Part shown: piece by piece, positions 1,706-11,232 of the stretch
Layout: each line of letters begins with the position of its first letter
How positions within the stretch are numbered: position 1 is the first letter of the stretch
NCBI GenBank assembly: GCA_903869365.1
Contig: CAIPYV010000005.1
Coordinates: 1 to 33,837 of the forward strand
DNA: 33,837 nucleotides
From: an uncultured Chlorobiaceae bacterium
Lineage (GTDB): Bacteria > Bacteroidota > Chlorobiia > Chlorobiales > Chlorobiaceae
Direction of reading: 5' to 3'
Notes under the pieces: generated by a model
Database searches by the model: none
Told to the model about the DNA's origin: nothing
What the model saw: only the letters and a program-made list of their open reading frames with translations
Translations under genes and position numbers: made by a program

Positions 1706-3608
1706 TCACTGCCTGAACAGGGTCGAAGTTCGTTTATCACGGGGCGTCAGAAGCCAGTCGGTAAGATGACGGGCTTCAGGAGATGTCGTATTAGTTTTAG
1801 CGCAATCGCGAAGCTGCCGAAATTCATCTGCACTGAGTTTTTCCTCTCCTCCCATATTATTGATTCGCATTTGACCAACAGCTTCGCCAAAGTGAGCAAG
1901 AGCCAATGCCATTCCCTCCCCCCCTTTGGATAATATTTCCCAGACCCTTGCGGTGTTATCCATTGATGCGGTGACGACAAAGCGCCCGTTCGGGCTGAAT
2001 TGCGCTGAACGCACCAAGGACATATGTTGCATAGGCTGGGACAAAGGAATCGGATTGATAGTATACACAAGAGCAGAATAGAGCCGTGCGACGACACTAA
2101 GGTTTGTGCTATTAGTACGAATTGCGCGAGAGAGATATGCCATCCCCTCACTTAACCTCTCTTGCTCCAGGTACTCTGAGTCTTGGATAACGTCTGACCG
2201 GCTCAGTGTTTGCAATGCTTCATATTTTGCCTTTTCAGCCCGCTGATTGGATATCCAGCTATAAGCAGCCAAAGCGGCAAAGAGCAGCATCAGCAGTGTC
2301 AAAGTGGAAGCTCCCTTTATCTGGCGACGTATTTGCTGCCTGGCTTTATCCAATACCTCCTGTTCTCGTCGGGTAGTGCGGGAACGTACCGCCAGCGGAG
2401 TAAGAAGATCGTGGGTCAGTTCAAGACGGTTAGTGCCGTTGCGCTCTTCAGCGGTGAGAAGCCGCCTGGAAATCAGGGTGTAGATGAGTTGACGGGCATT
2501 CTGCACTCCCGCACTCTTCAATTCATTTTCAGCATCTTCAAGAGGTAGGGTGTTGCAATGGCCGCTGGGACTGACCAACTGATCCTCAACAAAGTGACGC
2601 AGTGCAACGGGTTGGTTGGCAAAACTCTCCTCGTAGTAATTACTGAGTATGTCATCTCCAAGAGTTGTTACCAGCCCGGAACTTATTTCTGCGTTCGGAG
2701 GGGAGCTTTTCAGGCGAGCAGCGTTCAACTGTTCGCAGAGAAGGCTTAAAAACGGCGGAACAGCCTCGATCTCATCCATTGGCATGTTGTCAGGACGGCG
2801 CGCAACCTTGAGTACGATCTGCATCCCCACCTTTTGGGAAACAATAGCGGCCTCCCCCCTTCTGCCGGGGCAAACCGCTGCTTCAAGGGCCTCTGGTCCG
2901 CTCAACAGATGCAGCGCCATCCGGTTGCGCATGAGCGAAGGCATCACACTTTTCCAGCGTTCCAGATGAGAGAGATAATCCGCCCGCAGGGTGAGCACAA
3001 TCCGGACAGGGGTTGCTGTTGTGTCGAACTCTCGGGCTTGCTGACGATCACTTCGAAACTGTTGCTGTAAAAAGACCGGAGGGCGGTTCTCCACCAGATC
3101 AGCTATCTGGGTAAACCATTCAACAACCTCAGCCTGTCGTGAACCGGAAAGGGTAAAGATCTCTTCAAACGAGTCAACAAACAAGCACCGGCGGAGATTG
3201 GAGCAAATCTTTCGGACGGGAATCGATATGATGAAGAATTTCCCAGAGGGTGACGGCGGGTTTTACACTCTCTATCTTCAGTGCCTTGCAGAGAGCAAGA
3301 CGGGTCTGATCTGCCAGTGAAGGGACATCTTCAGAAAAACTCAGCCGGATCAACTGCGGTCGATAGCTCTCAACCTTGAGTTTCGGGAGAAGACCGGCCC
3401 CAAGCAGTGAAGTTTTACCGAAACCGGACTGACCGAACAGAGTGGTAAGTCTGTTTTCCCTGACACGCGTGAAGAGTTCATTGATCGCGTTGTTTCGGCC
3501 AAAGAAGTATGCCTGGGTCTCTTCGGTGTAGGCATTGAGGCCAAGCCACGGGTGCTGGTCGTCAACAATCTGACGACTGTCATCAGGTTTCAGTGTTGTA
3601 CTCTTCAT
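1706..3608 (-). pseudogene. nSTAND-type NTPase with residual WD40, frameshifted
   Basis: Two adjacent frames (3608 to 3174, then 3184 to 1706) form one STAND NTPase. The N-terminal part has HPWLGLNAYTEETQAYFFGR and a Walker A, GQSGFGKTSLL. The Walker B should read PPVLVVDSFEEIFTL, but an extra T near 3180 throws the frame into a stop. Downstream are the winged-helix-like region (RRLLTAEERNG...LELTHDLLTPL), a membrane segment (TLTLLMLLFAALAAYSWI), then a single WD40 repeat (FSPNGRFVVTASMDNTARVW). That repeat jumps straight into the usual C-terminal tail (LAHFGEAVGQMRIN ... DWLLTPRDKRTSTLF), so most of the propeller has been deleted. STAND proteins sense a ligand through the repeat region and oligomerise to trigger an effector. 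The SIR2-TIR gene 40 bases upstream is the likely effector partner. Confidence 0.75.
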
Positions 3609-3648: not shown

Positions 3649-5025
3649 TTACCCTTTTGGACGGCCGGAGTTGCGGTACTCCTCTAACAGAGTCTGCATC
3701 CACCGCGCAAAATCTGGAGTTACTCTCCCATTCAGCAGCAGTGTACGGTGACTACGGGCAAGTTGTGGCGGCTCATGTTCAACATTTGCCAGTTTTTCGA
3801 TCAGCACTGGAATATAGTAGACAAAGCCATCAACCTGGCGCTGAGCTGCCCACGTACGTTCCTGATGGACATAGCGGGTCTGGTCTGATTCGGTATTTTT
3901 TGAAATCAGCGAGATGAAAAAGCTGGAATCATTTTTTATTGCATTCTCCAACTTCCGCTCGAAGTTTTCGCCTGCGGAGAGCCTTTTTTTGTCGAGCCAT
4001 ACCGGTATTTTTGCAGCCATCAGGCCACGCGCCAGTTCCAGGGCAGACGATTGATCGTCATGAGAATAACTGATAAAAACATAACCACGAGGCAACTCGT
4101 CGCTCATCGACTGTAGGAGATCACCATCGGCTGACAGAGAGTAGCGTTCTCTCCACTGACGGGCAAGTTCGCAGGCGAAGTCGCACGGGTTGCCAGGAAT
4201 AATGCGGGTGGAACCCACCTTCTGTTCATAAAAAAAGATCGTCGGGGATGCTATTGTTGCCGGTTCGTCAGCCACATAGTCCAGACGACCCTGATCACGA
4301 GGATCTGAAAAGCGCTTTCCTTTTGCTACACGAAGGAAAAAACGGACCATCCAGTCGTTGAATGGAGAGCCGATCAGGAGCAGGTCTTTATTGCGCAGGT
4401 GGTCAAAAAGCAATCGCAGATTATCCTGCTTCTCCAGCAGTCCGCAGATATATTCGATGTAATCTTCCTCCCAGACAACAAAATCGGGGTAGGTGTTGTG
4501 TGTGCCAAGGATGTGAAAGAGAAATGGTGCCGGCAGTTGCGAGGGAAGATCCCGGGGTTGTTGGGATGAAAATCGAGACCATTCTGTTCCGGCAGAAAAC
4601 CAGGATTGTTCTGCTCAAGGGCTTGCGATGTCAGAGGATCAAATGTTGTGGAGATAAAGAGCGCGAAATCAGTAATCGAGGTCAGATCAAGCAATGCCCT
4701 TGAGGGTTGAGCTTTCAGTTTGTCCACCAGATCCCGTACCTCGTCATAGATCTCTTTGCATGCATTGCCGCTCAATAGCCAGGAGCAGGTTACGGCGTTG
4801 AGCGTAGGTTGTTCTCCCTGTGGGATCGGAATCTTGAGACGCCTGGCAAGTTCGGCAGCAAGGTGGCGGTAAAGCGAAATCTGCTGGCCATCAGCAGAAG
4901 TAATGGTCACCAGTTCCGGGCCTATGACTGGAAGCACCTGCCCTGCATAAATGTCGCGCATAAGGCTCCGCCCACTGGCGATCATCAAGAAAGGGAGTAG
5001 TAGAACGTTGGGATTCTAATTCCAT
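3649..5025 (-). pseudogene. SIR2-like/TIR fusion protein, two frameshifts
   Basis: Three consecutive frame segments rebuild one protein of about 455 residues. ATG at 5025 (weak AGGA upstream) begins MELESQRSTTPFLDDRQWAE. An extra base near 4964 shifts to LMRDIYAGQVLPVIGPELV. A second shift at 4551-4565 joins NGLDFHPN to PRDLPSQLPAPFLFHILG and YPDFVVWEEDYIEYI. The N-terminal half is a SIR2-like NAD-binding fold (IGPELV in the GAG position, TTFD for TTN, and a likely catalytic His in LFHILG). The C-terminal half (about residues 290-430) is a TIR domain (GYVFISYSHDD, PVWLDKKRLSAGENF, an acidic residue in HQERTWA). Both domains are linked to NAD+ breakdown in immunity. The gene is interrupted as read; sequencing error cannot be excluded. 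Confidence 0.75.
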
Positions 5026-5210: not shown

Positions 5211-6917
5211 TCACGCAACCAGTTCGGGTGAGTTAAAACTAATGAGAGCCCACCATTCGTAATTTTCAAGATTGACCGTCCATACTGCTTGTTGGACGAT
5301 CTCTCTGAGTTCATATAGATTGCTACTATCATTAGCAAGTGCTTCCAGTCGGCCCAGTTCACAAGCCATTTTTTTTGAGCGTTCAGCAATACGATCATAC
5401 TCCAGTTGTTTGCCTATGGCGTGTAATGCCGCACCCCAAACGGGCAAAGTGACGGCAAGAAATGTTCCCCATTTGCTTAAAGAAAAAATCTCTTCTCCCT
5501 CAGGGATACGCTCATGCCCTATACCGCTCAGATGGAAAACTGCCATTGCCAAAGTAATGCAGAAAAGCGCTATCACGGTATTCCGAAGCTTATGTTCGGT
5601 ATCCTCTTTTATTTTGGCATTTCTTAAGTGCCAATTTTTTTGATTTTTCAGCCATCCATAAATGATAAATGTTTTAATAGCGTCTAAATCAGCAGTACCA
5701 TTGATGTTAGAAAAGACTTTTTTTACCTGGATCGCTATAAGGAAATCAATCCAGTTTTTAGGTTTATTGTAGAATGGTAAGGGTTGTGATTCAGGAGATG
5801 AGCCTGAAAGAGGATAGTCTTGAACCATAACGGTAAACATCGATGTGCGTAATCGCTCGGCAAGAAAGCGGTAATTGATCCATTTTTCATGCCATGAGAA
5901 CCGTCGACTGATATAGAGTGCGGCTAACACAGCCGCCATTGAGCCGATTTCCAAGAAAATAATTTTTGTTTGATGCTCAAAAAAAATTAACTGAGACACA
6001 ACGACCGAAACCGCAACTGCAGAGAAGATATGGATCAATTTGCTTACTCGAACATGACAGTTTTGATTGTGTGAAGCGACCTTGTCTGAGTGCACATAAG
6101 CAGGTATGAGGTATTTTAAAATCGGTTCGAGTTGGACACAGGGTAATGATGTCATTTGTGCAAGTTCCCGGATTTCCTGACGGCGCTTTTCCGTGAGAAT
6201 ATCCTGTTTTTTATTAGGATGATATAAGTCATGGCAAAATTTCACAAAGTGATGATCACGGCTAAACTCTGCAAATTGACGGTAGTTTATAGTGAGAATG
6301 CTTGTCTCGCTGGCTAACTGAAACTCTTGATAGTCGGGAGTGCTTTTTTGTTCGACTTTGTTTTTTTTTGCACGAAGCAGCGTGGCTTGGGCATTGGGAT
6401 TCCCAGTATCAATACGAAGAACAATTCGCCCGCGCTCAAGGGCATAGCTGACAATTTCGGCTGTTCCTCCCTTGCCCTGAGATGGATTGCCGTCCCAGAT
6501 GGCTATCAGAATTTCACAGGCATCGACAACTTTTTTGCCGACTGGCAAATAACCCTCTGAACTCGGAGGCATCTCAACATGTAGAGATGCACTCTCCAAT
6601 AACTGATTGAACTCCTGTAAATCTTTCGGATCGGTAAAGTTTTTGCGATATTCACCCAGAGAAAAGGGTGTGAGTACTTCCAGTCGTGCGCTCTCTTTTT
6701 TCAGGATTGATTTTGCTACAATTCTGTCGGCCCCCTTTGCCAGAGGTGAAATAACCGTCCATTCAATCGGAACATTGTCCTGATTGTTCATCAGGTTTTC
6801 CAGATAAGTAAGCAGACGGTTCACTGCTTCCGCAACAGCATGCTCCTCTGTCAGTTTGCTGTGACCGGTTACTCCGATACGAAGCTCATAGGCGAGTTGC
6901 TCTGGCTTGCTTGGCAT
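5211..6917 (-). CDS. SLOG-SLATT membrane effector protein
   Basis: A 568-residue intact protein. Residues about 10-170 form a Rossmann-like SLOG/LOG-type nucleotide-binding domain: VTGHSKL (16-22), SPLAKGADRIVAKS (57-70), IAIWDGNPSQGKGGTAE (138-154). Residues about 280-365 carry two membrane helices followed by WINYRFLAERLRT, the signature of SLATT (SMODS/SLOG-associated 2TM) effectors. A second TM pair (around 435-500) is followed by YDRIAERSKKMA and a long helix ending EWWALI, a second SLATT-like half. Family knowledge: SLOG domains are thought to sense or process nucleotide signals, and SLATT modules to act as pore-forming effectors. No strong Shine-Dalgarno precedes the ATG. It sits 185 bases before the SIR2-TIR start. 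Confidence 0.8.
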   Translation of the reverse strand: MPSKPEQLAYELRIGVTGHSKLTEEHAVAEAVNRLLTYLENLMNNQDNVPIEWTVISPLAKGADRIVAKSILKKESARLEVLTPFSLGEYRKNFTDPKDLQEFNQLLESASLHVEMPPSSEGYLPVGKKVVDACEILIAIWDGNPSQGKGGTAEIVSYALERGRIVLRIDTGNPNAQATLLRAKKNKVEQKSTPDYQEFQLASETSILTINYRQFAEFSRDHHFVKFCHDLYHPNKKQDILTEKRRQEIRELAQMTSLPCVQLEPILKYLIPAYVHSDKVASHNQNCHVRVSKLIHIFSAVAVSVVVSQLIFFEHQTKIIFLEIGSMAAVLAALYISRRFSWHEKWINYRFLAERLRTSMFTVMVQDYPLSGSSPESQPLPFYNKPKNWIDFLIAIQVKKVFSNINGTADLDAIKTFIIYGWLKNQKNWHLRNAKIKEDTEHKLRNTVIALFCITLAMAVFHLSGIGHERIPEGEEIFSLSKWGTFLAVTLPVWGAALHAIGKQLEYDRIAERSKKMACELGRLEALANDSSNLYELREIVQQAVWTVNLENYEWWALISFNSPELVA

Positions 6918-7080: not shown

Positions 7081-8988
7081 TCATTTATTAGTACTTGCAG
7101 ACTCATAATTGTTTCTTAACTGCAAAGCTTGCAATGATTGTTCGATGATGTCGTTATCTTTAACATGCTCTGTTTGGGATAACTTTTCTTCGAGTAAGGT
7201 AGAATTAACCCTGAGGCATCGATCCAGTTCCTTACCTGATTTAATTTGCATCTCGGTATATTTTGCAGGATGACTCCCATGTGTAAAACCATTCATAAAC
7301 ATAAATGCTCTGTACCGGCGCCTTTCCATGATTACCAAATCGTTGTATTTTTTTTCCATAAGTTTTCGGTCATTATCCGAAATGTTTACACTCCCCTTAA
7401 ATACACAATTTGCAACTGTTTCTGAATTAATCCCAGAGTAGCGAGCTTTGATCGCCAGATGGTCTGCGACATCCCGATTTGACTCTTTAAAGAGCAATTT
7501 TTCTTGTTCCCAATCTTTGTTGTCTATTTTTTGACGTTTTGCATACACTGAATGAAATCCTTTTGCAAGGTCATCTGCAAGGTCATCTGTAACTGTTTTG
7601 GCAAAAACAGAGTCAAGGCATATCTCCTCTATACTATAAGGTATTTCCTTTAATACAGGAATATCATTACCATTCCTTATTCCAACAACTGATTTACTCT
7701 GCACTGCAAGGATTAAACGTTGCGGTATAGTACCAATTAACTCATCATGAACACCTAATGCCGCCTGCAGATCACGTGCTTCTGCCAGATTGCGTATATC
7801 AGAATCGTGACACACATAAATAACCGATGGCCAACGTGCACCACAGGTTTCAGATATAGAACCGTCTCGAACAGCATGTACTGCGGACGATTTCAGAAGA
7901 CATACGTTAATCGTGGGCAACACACTATCAAAATAATCCTGAGAGATTTCCGACCTTCCTCCCCAAGACTCGCAGACACTGTAATCAGTGTCAAGTGCAG
8001 GATAAATGGCTTTAAGTTCCAAGAATGCCTTAGTTACTCCTTCACCTGCCCAAATCACAAGAAGTTTTCCTTTGGGCGAAAAAATGCCGATGCGTGCAAA
8101 CCTAAGTAAGATCGCCTTAGCGGCTTCAGACGTGCCAGTCACCATCACGATTTGGGAAATAGGGCCTTGTTCAGTATGGGCATAAATATCGGGAGCGTAA
8201 TCATTCACGATGCCTCGCGCCGCTATATCGATGGGGTTACAGGAACGAATGTCTAATTGTGTATTTTGGTTAAGCGCTTTAAGTCCAACCCAGTCTACAA
8301 GAAGTCTTTGCATATCGCTTGATTCAGTACGAATGAATACTTTTGAAGAATTCTTAAGATATCCGGAAATGTTTTCAAGAATTGACAGATTGTCTCGTTC
8401 CTTTGGAAGTAAGAGATAAATACATTTTGCATGTTCCAGATTAGCAATTTTCCCTATGTTGGGGTGCAGAGCATTATAGCTTAGTATAACAGGTTTTTGT
8501 TTGTTGCTCTTATTCTCTTTTTCCTTGTTTTCTGGAGGATCAATCAAGTCAATTCCGACTATCAATTTTCCATTTATAAAAAGTTGTTTTGCTAATGCCT
8601 GCCCAAATGCACCATAACCGACGATCACATAGTGATTATGAAGACGACCAACCTCCAACTTTTTCATATACGGTACAATACGATCATGGAAGAGCTTGCT
8701 GAAAATTGTGATAGAAGCAAATAACGGGATTGCAAATTGGGTAGCGTAAAGAGCATATCGAAGAATATTATTCACTACGTCATCAGCTGTCTTGTTAAGA
8801 ACAATAAATTGTAAAGAATAGTAAAAGCCATGAAGAAATCGCGATGGCATACTCCCGCCCAACGCACAAATCCAAAGTCCTGTAGAAATAGCAAGCAACA
8901 AACCTACAATCCATTTACCATGGTAATCAATCAATTCAATCCATTTGCCTTCTCTGAACCAATGAATCCATTTGCTTATCCAGTTCAT
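7081..8988 (-). CDS. 2TM channel-like protein with TrkA_N and RyR domains
   Basis: A 635-residue intact protein with a good Shine-Dalgarno (TGAGG, 8 bases before ATG). Helices lie near residues 26-45 and 76-99 with a pore-like loop between. They are followed by a TrkA_N/RCK-type Rossmann domain starting HYVIVGYGAFGQALAKQL (119-136) and probably a second, weaker one (IVMVTGTSEAAKAILLRFA). Residues about 500-575 resemble a bacterial RyR domain (ESNRDVADHLAIKAR, then MERRRYRAFMFMNGFTHG). The layout resembles a K+ channel plus RCK regulator, but the T-x-G-Y-G filter is absent. RyR domains occur with SLATT, SLOG and TIR genes in predicted nucleotide-signal conflict systems, which is exactly the neighbourhood here. 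Likely a ligand-gated membrane protein; the ligand is unknown. Confidence 0.75.
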   Translation of the reverse strand: MNWISKWIHWFREGKWIELIDYHGKWIVGLLLAISTGLWICALGGSMPSRFLHGFYYSLQFIVLNKTADDVVNNILRYALYATQFAIPLFASITIFSKLFHDRIVPYMKKLEVGRLHNHYVIVGYGAFGQALAKQLFINGKLIVGIDLIDPPENKEKENKSNKQKPVILSYNALHPNIGKIANLEHAKCIYLLLPKERDNLSILENISGYLKNSSKVFIRTESSDMQRLLVDWVGLKALNQNTQLDIRSCNPIDIAARGIVNDYAPDIYAHTEQGPISQIVMVTGTSEAAKAILLRFARIGIFSPKGKLLVIWAGEGVTKAFLELKAIYPALDTDYSVCESWGGRSEISQDYFDSVLPTINVCLLKSSAVHAVRDGSISETCGARWPSVIYVCHDSDIRNLAEARDLQAALGVHDELIGTIPQRLILAVQSKSVVGIRNGNDIPVLKEIPYSIEEICLDSVFAKTVTDDLADDLAKGFHSVYAKRQKIDNKDWEQEKLLFKESNRDVADHLAIKARYSGINSETVANCVFKGSVNISDNDRKLMEKKYNDLVIMERRRYRAFMFMNGFTHGSHPAKYTEMQIKSGKELDRCLRVNSTLLEEKLSQTEHVKDNDIIEQSLQALQLRNNYESASTNK

Positions 8989-9219: not shown

Positions 9220-11181
9220 TCAATCATTATCGATTTTGCTGAGGTTTTTCAGTGCAGGTGTATATCCTTGCTTGGCAGATTTACGGTACCAGGTCACAGC
9301 TTCTTTTTTATTTTTAGGAACTCCTTCTCCATCCGCATACATATCACCAAGATGGTTCTGGGCCTCAGCATCTCCATTGACAGCGGCTTTGCGGTACCAA
9401 GTTACAGCTTCTTTTTCATTTTTAGGAACACCTCTACCATATGCAAACATATCTCCTAAATTGAACTGTGCAGCTGCATATTCCTGCTCTGCGGCTTTGC
9501 GGTACCAGTTCACTGCTTCTTTTTCATCTTTAGGAACACCTTCTCCATCCGCATACATATCGCCTAAATTGTTCTGAGCATCGGCATTTCCCTGCTCTGC
9601 GGCTTTGCGGTACCAGTTCACTGCTTCTTTTTCATCTTTGGGAACACCTTCTCCATCCGCATACATATCGCCTAAATTGTTCTGAGCATCGGCATTTCCC
9701 TGTTCGGTTGCTTTCGGCTCTGCTGCTTTGCTGTACCAGTCCATAGCTTCTTTATAATTTTGAAGAAGTCCTTCTCCATCCGCATACATATCGCCTAAAT
9801 TGTTCTGAGCAGCTCCATATCCCTGATCTGCGGCTTTGCGGTACCAGTTCACTGCTTCTTTTTCATCTTTAGGAACACCTCGACCATACGCATACATATC
9901 TCCCAAATTGTTCTGAGCAGCTGCATTGTCCTTTTCTACTGCTTTGCCGTACCAGTCCACAGCTTCTTTATAATTTTTAGGAACACCTCGACCATACGCA
10001 TACATATCTCCCAAATTGTTCTGGGCATCAGCATTTTTCTGTTCTGCTGCTTGGCGATACCAGCTCACCGCTTCTTTATAATTTTGAAGAACTCCTTTTC
10101 CATTTGCATACATATTGCCTAGATTATTCTGGGCATCAGCATTTCCCTGTTCTGCGGATTTACGGTACCATTTTAACGCTTCTTTATAATTTTGAAGAAC
10201 TCCTTTTCCATTTGCATATATATTGCCTAGATTGTTCTGGGCATCGGCATTTCCCTGTTCTGCTGCTTTGCGATACGAGTTTAACGCTTCTTTATAATTT
10301 TGAAAAGCTCCTTTTTCATTGGCATACATATTGCCAAGATTATTCTGGGCATCGGCATTTCCCTGTTCTGCCGCTTTGCGGTACCAGCTCATCGCTTCTT
10401 TTTCATTTAAAAGGACGCCTTCTCCTTTTTTATACATGCTGCCAAGATAGAGCTGTGCAGCAGCATATCCTTGATCTGCGGCTTTCAGAAATAAGTGATA
10501 AGCCTGCTCATATTGTTTCGCATTATACAATTCAACTGCTTTGTTGTAATTTTGTGCATTAGTATCCGGTTCTATTATTGGTATTGATTGGGTTTGAGGT
10601 TCTTTAAGTGTAGGAACTCTATCTCTGGATTGATAAAAAAAAGTTATCAATATCCCTGATACAACAAACAGAACGACCAATCCTAATGGAAGCATTTTAG
10701 TCGCTGCAAGTTTTTTAAAAGCACGGATATATTTTATCCAGATTGGGTCTGGTCGTTCTTGATTAGGATCCGGTGGTACAGGTCTTGGTGGTTTTCCTAA
10801 AATATTTGACATATCCTCTACCAGCTTGAGGAAAGAAAAATCTGAAGTACTCCCCTTCCATTCTATGAGGTTGGCTGCTTGAGTTGACCTGAACCCCATC
10901 GGTTGATCAACTGAACTTATGAGTATTGGTATTAGTATTTGGCGTTTTAGCCCTGATTCTGCTTCCTCACGAACCCAGGTGCTTTTTATTGACACTTCAG
11001 ACCACAACACCAACATACAACGGGTGTTAGCAAGAGCATCCTCAATTACCTCGGCATATTTTTTTCCAGCTGGAATTGTGCGATCCCACCAGACAACCCA
11101 TCCCAAAGCCCCTAATGCCTTGCCCAGCTGCTGAGCCCGTTGGCGGTCTTCATGTGCATAGCTGATAAAAATATCAAACAT
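9220..11181 (-). CDS. TIR-TM-Sel1 repeat protein
   Basis: A 653-residue protein. The frame opens farther upstream with a TTG at 11232, but ATG at 11181 is preferred because it begins directly at the TIR domain, MFDIFISYAHEDR, with a GGA about 9 bases upstream. TIR spans about 1-130 (GWVVWWDRTIPAGKKY; likely catalytic acidic residue at E72/E73 in WVREEAESGL). A proline-rich linker and a membrane helix (about 164-183) follow. Then come about eleven Sel1-like repeats of 36 residues (LG-MYA-G-GV---EA--WYRKAAEQGNADAQNN). Repeats eight and nine are near-identical at DNA level. Inference: Sel1 repeats sense or scaffold a protein ligand and the TIR acts on NAD+ or makes a signal molecule. It is the first gene of the minus-strand conflict block. 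Confidence 0.85.
   Translation of the reverse strand: MFDIFISYAHEDRQRAQQLGKALGALGWVVWWDRTIPAGKKYAEVIEDALANTRCMLVLWSEVSIKSTWVREEAESGLKRQILIPILISSVDQPMGFRSTQAANLIEWKGSTSDFSFLKLVEDMSNILGKPPRPVPPDPNQERPDPIWIKYIRAFKKLAATKMLPLGLVVLFVVSGILITFFYQSRDRVPTLKEPQTQSIPIIEPDTNAQNYNKAVELYNAKQYEQAYHLFLKAADQGYAAAQLYLGSMYKKGEGVLLNEKEAMSWYRKAAEQGNADAQNNLGNMYANEKGAFQNYKEALNSYRKAAEQGNADAQNNLGNIYANGKGVLQNYKEALKWYRKSAEQGNADAQNNLGNMYANGKGVLQNYKEAVSWYRQAAEQKNADAQNNLGDMYAYGRGVPKNYKEAVDWYGKAVEKDNAAAQNNLGDMYAYGRGVPKDEKEAVNWYRKAADQGYGAAQNNLGDMYADGEGLLQNYKEAMDWYSKAAEPKATEQGNADAQNNLGDMYADGEGVPKDEKEAVNWYRKAAEQGNADAQNNLGDMYADGEGVPKDEKEAVNWYRKAAEQEYAAAQFNLGDMFAYGRGVPKNEKEAVTWYRKAAVNGDAEAQNHLGDMYADGEGVPKNKKEAVTWYRKSAKQGYTPALKNLSKIDND
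9491..9706 (-). repeat. Near-perfect 108-bp tandem repeat inside the Sel1 gene
   Basis: Bases 9491-9598 and 9599-9706 differ at only one internal base (A/G in the ATCTTTAGG/ATCTTTGGG stretch) and the last few positions. Each unit encodes one Sel1 repeat of 36 residues. The other repeats in the gene are more diverged, so this looks like a recent duplication or gene conversion. Confidence 0.8.
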
Positions 11182-11232
11182 CACTAATATCCGATTGTTA
11201 AAAAAAACAAATGAATCCTCCCAAACAAACAA

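Follow-up and report, generated by a model that had tools for sequence, protein, structure and literature searches.

The window analysed here is the whole stretch of 33,837 nucleotides from an uncultured Chlorobiaceae bacterium (GenBank assembly GCA_903869365.1, contig CAIPYV010000005.1, positions 1 to 33,837), and its subject is a gene for a channel-like protein together with the TIR gene next to it. The channel gene (7081–8988, minus strand) is an intact open reading frame (ORF) of 635 codons with an ATG start, preceded by a GAGG Shine-Dalgarno-like motif. Judged from the ORF, its full-length homologs, and a structural model, the 635-residue product consists of two transmembrane (TM) helices with a pore helix and loop between them (TM-P-TM), followed by RCK1, RCK2, and RyR domains. 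Upstream on the same strand, across a gap of 231 bp, lies a gene (9220–11184, minus strand) for a protein with a TIR domain (10858–11172), a TM helix (about 10636–10692), and Sel1 repeats, as assigned by Pfam, TIR_2, and TM prediction; the TIR glutamate is kept.

Taken alone, the channel protein matches a single entry among Pfam, NCBIfam, PADLOC, and PDB sequences, the Pfam domain TrkA_N at residues 120–230 (E 5.1e-7), which includes the motif GYGAFGQ. The AlphaFold2 model, built on a 20-row alignment, has a mean predicted local distance difference test score (pLDDT) of 80 and a predicted template modelling score (pTM) of 0.78, and lays out a helix at residues 15–42, a helix at 47–63, a loop, a helix at 74–114, a Rossmann domain from residue 119, a second Rossmann domain from 277, and a helical C-terminus starting at 458. 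On the minus strand, these parts correspond to TM1 (residues 15–42, 8863–8946; model helix with a hydropathy peak at 27–45), the P-helix and pore loop (residues 47–73, 8770–8850; model and alignment), and TM2 with a linker helix (residues 74–114, 8647–8769; model). The RCK1/KTN domain (residues 118–266, 8191–8637) contains TrkA_N with GYGAFGQ and has KTN structures among its fold matches (for example 1lss, Z 14.1). The RCK2-like Rossmann domain (residues 277–457, 7618–8160) is taken from the model and from tandem-RCK gating rings that align over residues 117–557, and a Repeat12-type RyR domain (residues 466–633, 7090–7593) is supported by profile and fold. A preliminary description of this DNA had proposed a K+-channel/RCK plan from two helices with an intervening loop and a GYGAFGQ Rossmann domain, and both the modelled TM-P-TM part and the Pfam match agree with it. 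The one Rossmann domain that it named is present as RCK1, but it overlooked the second RCK-type domain at about 277–457. Of the pore and RyR fold that it asked of a predicted structure, the monomer models show the TM-P-TM plan and a RyR-like C-terminus.

The residues FIVLNKTADD (61–70), which include D69 and D70, stand at the place of the K+ selectivity filter and make up the end of the P-helix (47–63) plus the loop behind it, between the membrane helices. Neither the window protein nor any other full-length member that was examined has T-x-G-[YFL]-G within its first 140 residues. The missing K+ filter noted in the preliminary description is therefore seen family-wide when the pore loop is compared across homologues, and because no member has the motif, its absence is a trait of the whole family and not decay of the window gene. 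A K+ channel identity is ruled out by the same absence in every member, and the ordinary K+ channels that the family profile matched were disregarded because the matches covered RCK1 alone. At least one Asp or Glu is present in the loop columns of all 20 aligned family proteins, so the permeant ions are probably cations. The RCK channel CASTOR, which lacks TVGYG, conducts Ca2+ and depends on a filter Asp (PMC6697748); by analogy with this acidic loop, the window protein would be a cation channel.

The closest structural relatives of the gating ring are plant nuclear channels. The best match is Medicago DMI1 (7vm8; Z 19.1, root mean square deviation (rmsd) 4.0 Å, 319 residues), and Lotus CASTOR (6o7c) reaches Z 17.2. 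DMI1, CASTOR, and POLLUX share with the window protein a tandem-RCK gating ring, the lack of TVGYG, and an acidic loop residue. However, they have four predicted TM helices, an AD-S/A-GNHA filter, Ca2+ regulation, and no RyR domain; that filter sequence is absent here, and the likeness is one of fold, with a sequence identity of 14%. Over the whole chain the bacterial channel GsuK matches with Z 17.4, at a large rmsd because the domains are placed differently, and Foldseek ranks GsuK, TrkA, Slo1, and MthK for the channel model. GsuK, a 2TM tandem-RCK K+ channel, and MthK share the 2TM-P plan and the RCK ring, but they have a K+ selectivity filter, whereas the window protein has none and carries an extra RyR domain. 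The monomer model thus shows the fold of an RCK-gated 2TM channel, with TM-P-TM followed by a tandem RCK ring.

The identity of the C-terminal domain rests on profiles and folds. Pfam PF02026 gives no match to the window protein at its gathering score, although relatives including L060, L061, and L063 do match. A profile of five chlorobial C-termini aligns by hhalign with the family profile of PF02026-matching relatives (probability 97.2%, E 3.4e-11), and the C-terminal domains of the family match animal ryanodine receptors (RyR1) at E about 1e-31 and Bacteroides 'putative ryanodine receptor' structures at 1e-14. Modelled separately (pLDDT 75), the window domain finds RyR structures in its best 13 rows (Z 7.5–4.4), and the next unrelated chains reach at most 3.3. 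Foldseek returned nothing significant for this model by itself, a null put down to the model being small, helical, and divergent, because the second structural comparison has RyR entries alone at its top. The RyR-like C-terminus of the preliminary description is upheld by the profile alignment and these structural rows, Pfam itself being silent. By profile and fold the domain is homologous to the Repeat12 domains of ryanodine receptors, to Bacteroides 3nrt and 6uag, and to PF02026. Unlike in the ryanodine receptor, whose pore and size are unrelated, it is fused here to a 2TM-RCK channel, and three of the ligand residues are gone.

These ligand residues are known from the phage anti-Thoeris protein RyDEP; work of 2026 showed that RyR domains of phages bind or cleave 2'/3' cyclic ADP-ribose (cADPR) (PMC13232231). 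RyDEP residues H75, W78, H100, and D117 touch the cADPR-type ligand, and H75 and D117 catalyze 2'/3'cADPR cleavage (PMC13232231). Mapped from alignments A5 and A8, not from a superposition with RyDEP, the window equivalents are R556, Y559, N595, and D611, so that only the Asp is kept. Members outside Chlorobia mostly keep the site as E-H-x-R-W, H (or N), and D. RyDEP thus belongs to the same domain family and is a reported 2'/3'cADPR binder, but it is soluble, comes from phages, and removes the signal by destruction or sequestration, and its catalytic His is Arg in the window protein. RyDEP-type hydrolysis is for this reason not expected here, and an active RyDEP-like glycosidase is ruled out for the window protein. 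The RyR domain could, in principle, still be an off-switch that sequesters or hydrolyzes the TIR signal and so limits activation. This reading draws on the H, W, H/N, and D kept in most family members and on the hydrolysis by RyDEP, but it is very improbable given the lost His of the window protein, the fused pore, which makes a gate likelier, and the failure of seven of eight tested RyDEP homologs to cleave (PMC13232231).

Nucleotides other than a cADPR isomer have to be weighed as well. NAD+/NADH, ADP, ATP, or ADP-ribose might act at the RCK or RyR sites, so that the channel would report TIR-driven NAD+ depletion and not a dedicated signal. The G-x-G-x-x-G nucleotide motif is kept in RCK1, the GsuK and TrkA structures among the matches bind NAD, ADP, or ATP, adenine-nucleotide-bound Repeat12 entries of animal RyR are among the best fold matches, and the RyR ligand residues of the chlorobial proteins are changed. 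On its own this explanation would leave the constant RyR domain and the tight TIR pairing unaccounted for, though NAD+ depletion by the TIR enzyme would fit as well, and we regard it as a possible though unlikely alternative.

The channel belongs to a family that is rare but widespread, occurring in Bacteroidota and Chlorobia and in plasmid-borne members of other lineages; beyond Bacteroidota, the coverage consisted of plasmid records. The nearest relative, in another Chlorobium-type genome, is about 57% identical over the full length. Purifying selection acts on the channel (nonsynonymous to synonymous rate ratio, dN/dS, about 0.15–0.38; 0.15 between the window and L003), and because full-length homologs are under such selection the window ORF is not a chance frame. 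RyR-domain matches across the phylum led to full-length proteins with the same plan, and BLASTP aligns residues 15–572 of the window protein with L061 from this set (E 3e-12), a span that makes the window branch and L061-type proteins truly one family. Profile A3, made from seven full-length proteins, found members in several orders, and a related profile found five in the order of the window, where the spread is patchy (4 other genomes of 98). Plasmid records hold members from Fusobacterium, Butyrivibrio, Sinorhizobium, and Arcobacter, the last a split copy. A plasmid search with the window sequence at 1e-5 returned none of these distant members, which were reached through relatives, and a scan of viral contigs with the single window sequence returned no relative. 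Two longer, divergent members of about 900 residues (L065, 6597–9314; L165, 4652–7312) have inserts between RCK2 and RyR, and TIR genes lie near but not adjacent to them.

Outside Chlorobia, a TIR gene lies directly beside the channel gene on the same strand at 21 of 28 loci, mostly across a gap of 3–50 bp; it precedes the channel gene in most lineages and follows it in others, and at two of these 21 loci the TIR frame is interrupted. Five further loci have a DUF4062-type gene in its stead (called by Pfam at L057 and L068 and by eye at L164; L069 and L070 duplicate the Sinorhizobium locus), and at the remaining two a TIR gene lies 1.0 and 3.6 kb off. By a simple estimate, adjacency was seen in 15 of 18 genomes against 0.017 expected and, with one genome per lineage, in five of eight against 0.009 expected. 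The neighbour is the sole TIR match of the genome in seven genomes. The C-termini of the TIR partners vary (Sel1, WD40, FGE, Fib_succ_major) though the pairing persists, and 25 of 26 aligned rows, the window TIR among them, retain the active-site glutamate, the remaining row being a fragment. The pairing, with TIR or DUF4062, extends to four or more other phyla. An osmoregulatory or K+-homeostasis channel, or a transporter subunit of that kind, without an immune role and with an incidental TIR neighbour, would agree with the TrkA_N domain, with the RCK-channel plan, and with chlorobial copies that have no TIR gene beside them. Such a housekeeping task is improbable, however, for a patchily spread family without a K+ filter in any member and with a TIR or DUF4062 partner in so many phyla.

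Several observations weigh against a signal passing from the TIR protein to the channel. Only two of the five chlorobial channels have a TIR neighbour: that of the window and that of the relative G117, where a TIR-TM-FGE gene lies upstream. The syntenic locus of G338 holds a channel 87% identical to that of G117 and no TIR gene, although the same genome has TIR-FGE and TIR-TM genes on different contigs. In all five chlorobial proteins H75 is replaced by R, Q, Q, E, or M, W78 by Tyr, and H100 by Asn, with the Asp kept. Finally, TIR and channel genes could be joined merely by the clustering of defence islands, an explanation that is disfavoured outside Chlorobia because of the 3–50 bp spacing. 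Universal TIR pairing is ruled out by the three chlorobial copies without such a neighbour; the other two besides that of G338 are on short contigs. Two close chlorobial loci differ by a clean absence (L147, 4297–4547) or presence (L064, 6777–8228) of a TIR-FGE gene upstream of the channel, so that the TIR partner was recently gained or lost. The chlorobial ligand may also differ from that of other members. The chlorobial branch may even have changed its task or lost signal binding, leaving the channel and TIR protein of the window genome uncoupled; besides the altered ligand residues and the TIR-less synteny, the frameshifts in the downstream TIR and nSTAND genes of the window would fit such a loss. 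We give it only a small probability, since the channel ORF is unbroken and evolves under purifying selection, and since in two divergent chlorobial genomes the gene directly upstream still encodes a TIR-TM protein, a different one in each. The TIR-linked, ligand-gated pore or sensor of the preliminary description is partly supported: at the level of the family it draws on the filterless channel-like topology, the true RyR domain, the operon-like TIR pairing, and the published 2'/3'cADPR binding by phage RyR domains (PMC13232231); for the window protein it is weakened by the changed equivalents of H75, W78, and H100 and by the relative L147, whose syntenic locus lacks a TIR gene.

General published work shows that TIR enzymes make cADPR isomers, that phage RyR domains bind them, and that RCK rings open 2TM pores. 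In the mechanism that we propose, the membrane-anchored TIR protein encoded just upstream would sense a threat, with its Sel1 part as sensor or scaffold, and would turn NAD+ into an ADP-ribose-type signal of the cADPR-isomer class. The channel would be a tetramer of the 2TM type with a cytosolic tandem-RCK ring and a peripheral RyR domain; uptake of the signal by the RyR domain would shift the RCK ring and pull the TM2 helices open. Ions other than K+ alone, probably cations, would then pass the membrane, and the depolarisation would halt the growth of the infected cell. The signal, the gating, the ion, and the defence role are what we infer. For the window gene, this Thoeris-like pair, with a TIR-made ADP-ribose-type signal and a RyR domain gating a pore that is not K+-selective and is probably cation-conducting, is given about an even chance; it is somewhat likelier for canonical members such as L061.

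Three further genes lie downstream of the channel, all on the minus strand. The first (5211–6917) encodes 568 residues with a SLOG-like domain, placed by inference, and two SLATT/DUF4231-type 2TM domains found by Pfam and NCBIfam. It is followed by a second TIR gene (3649–4988; ORF and Pfam), which is broken by one or more frameshifts and has an intact homolog at L189, and by an nSTAND1-WD40 gene (1706–3608; ORF and Pfam) split over two frames; these frame splits are due to decay or assembly error. The TIR-Sel1 gene and the frameshifted one are the only TIR genes of the genome. SLOG-SLATT homologs stand beside TIR in three chlorobial genomes without the channel (G193, G044, G197), two of which also have an nSTAND-type gene. 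Because this grouping occurs elsewhere without the channel, the window seems to hold two TIR-linked modules abreast, in which the 5211–6917 product is probably a second effector module and the partner of the channel is the TIR-Sel1 gene. In G213 and G248 a SLOG-SLATT gene comes immediately after an AAA-RyR-RyR gene. Since SLOG-SLATT homologs follow such genes or adjoin TIR, TIR signals may be received by SLOG-SLATT and RyR proteins, either as alternatives or jointly. The AAA-RyR-RyR proteins (L032, L182, L183), AAA-type ATPases of about 900 residues with two tandem C-terminal RyR domains, are common, occurring in about 20 genomes of the genus of the window; no TIR gene stands beside them in two loci examined. 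At the Sinorhizobium locus L068, a SLOG-like gene (2490–3116) flanks the DUF4062-channel pair in divergent orientation and is similar to the N-terminal part of the window SLOG-SLATT protein (BLASTP E 3e-8).

Among described systems, the pair comes closest to Thoeris, in which the TIR protein ThsB works with a ThsA of the SIR2-SLOG or TM-macro kind. Both combine a TIR enzyme gene with an effector carrying an ADP-ribose-sensing-type domain, and TM-macro ThsA is a membrane effector as well (PMC11204291); in the window, too, a TIR gene lies beside an effector gene with a putative sensor domain of the ADP-ribose type. In contrast to Thoeris, the sensor here is RyR, the effector is an RCK-ring channel, and most TIR partners have a membrane anchor and repeats; SIR2, SLOG, and macro domains are absent from the channel protein by Pfam. 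Because sensor and effector fit no described kind of ThsA, the pair is set apart from described Thoeris (PMC11204291). TIR-SLATT and SLOG-SLATT systems, a prediction of Burroughs et al. 2015 (cited in PMC7159879 and PMC9503650), are alike in placing predicted nucleotide-gated membrane effectors beside TIR, as with 5211–6917; the 2TM domain SLATT, however, has neither RCK nor RyR. Neither NCBIfam (June 2026) nor PADLOC (2023) has a name for the family members or the pair. A literature search that did not take in Burroughs 2015 and 2020 or the TIR survey preprint of Yirmiya et al. 2025, cited in PMC13232231, which may include the pair, found no description of a TIR-RyR-channel pair. That the pair forms an unnamed class of TIR immunity, with a non-K+ channel that opens when its RyR domain receives an ADP-ribose isomer made by TIR, is a tentative reading that we place slightly short of even.

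The direct action of cADPR on ryanodine receptors has long been disputed. If the proposed mechanism is true, the window protein and its family would offer a bacterial, directly nucleotide-gated counterpart of that link: a RyR domain on a small channel whose gene is kept, outside Chlorobia, beside the gene of a putative cADPR-making enzyme. The size of the channel suits purification, bilayers, and cryo-electron microscopy, and would make it simple to test whether RyR domains gate in response to nucleotides. An ion-channel effector would be added to TIR immunity, and the RyR-domain signal destroyers of phages would be accounted for.
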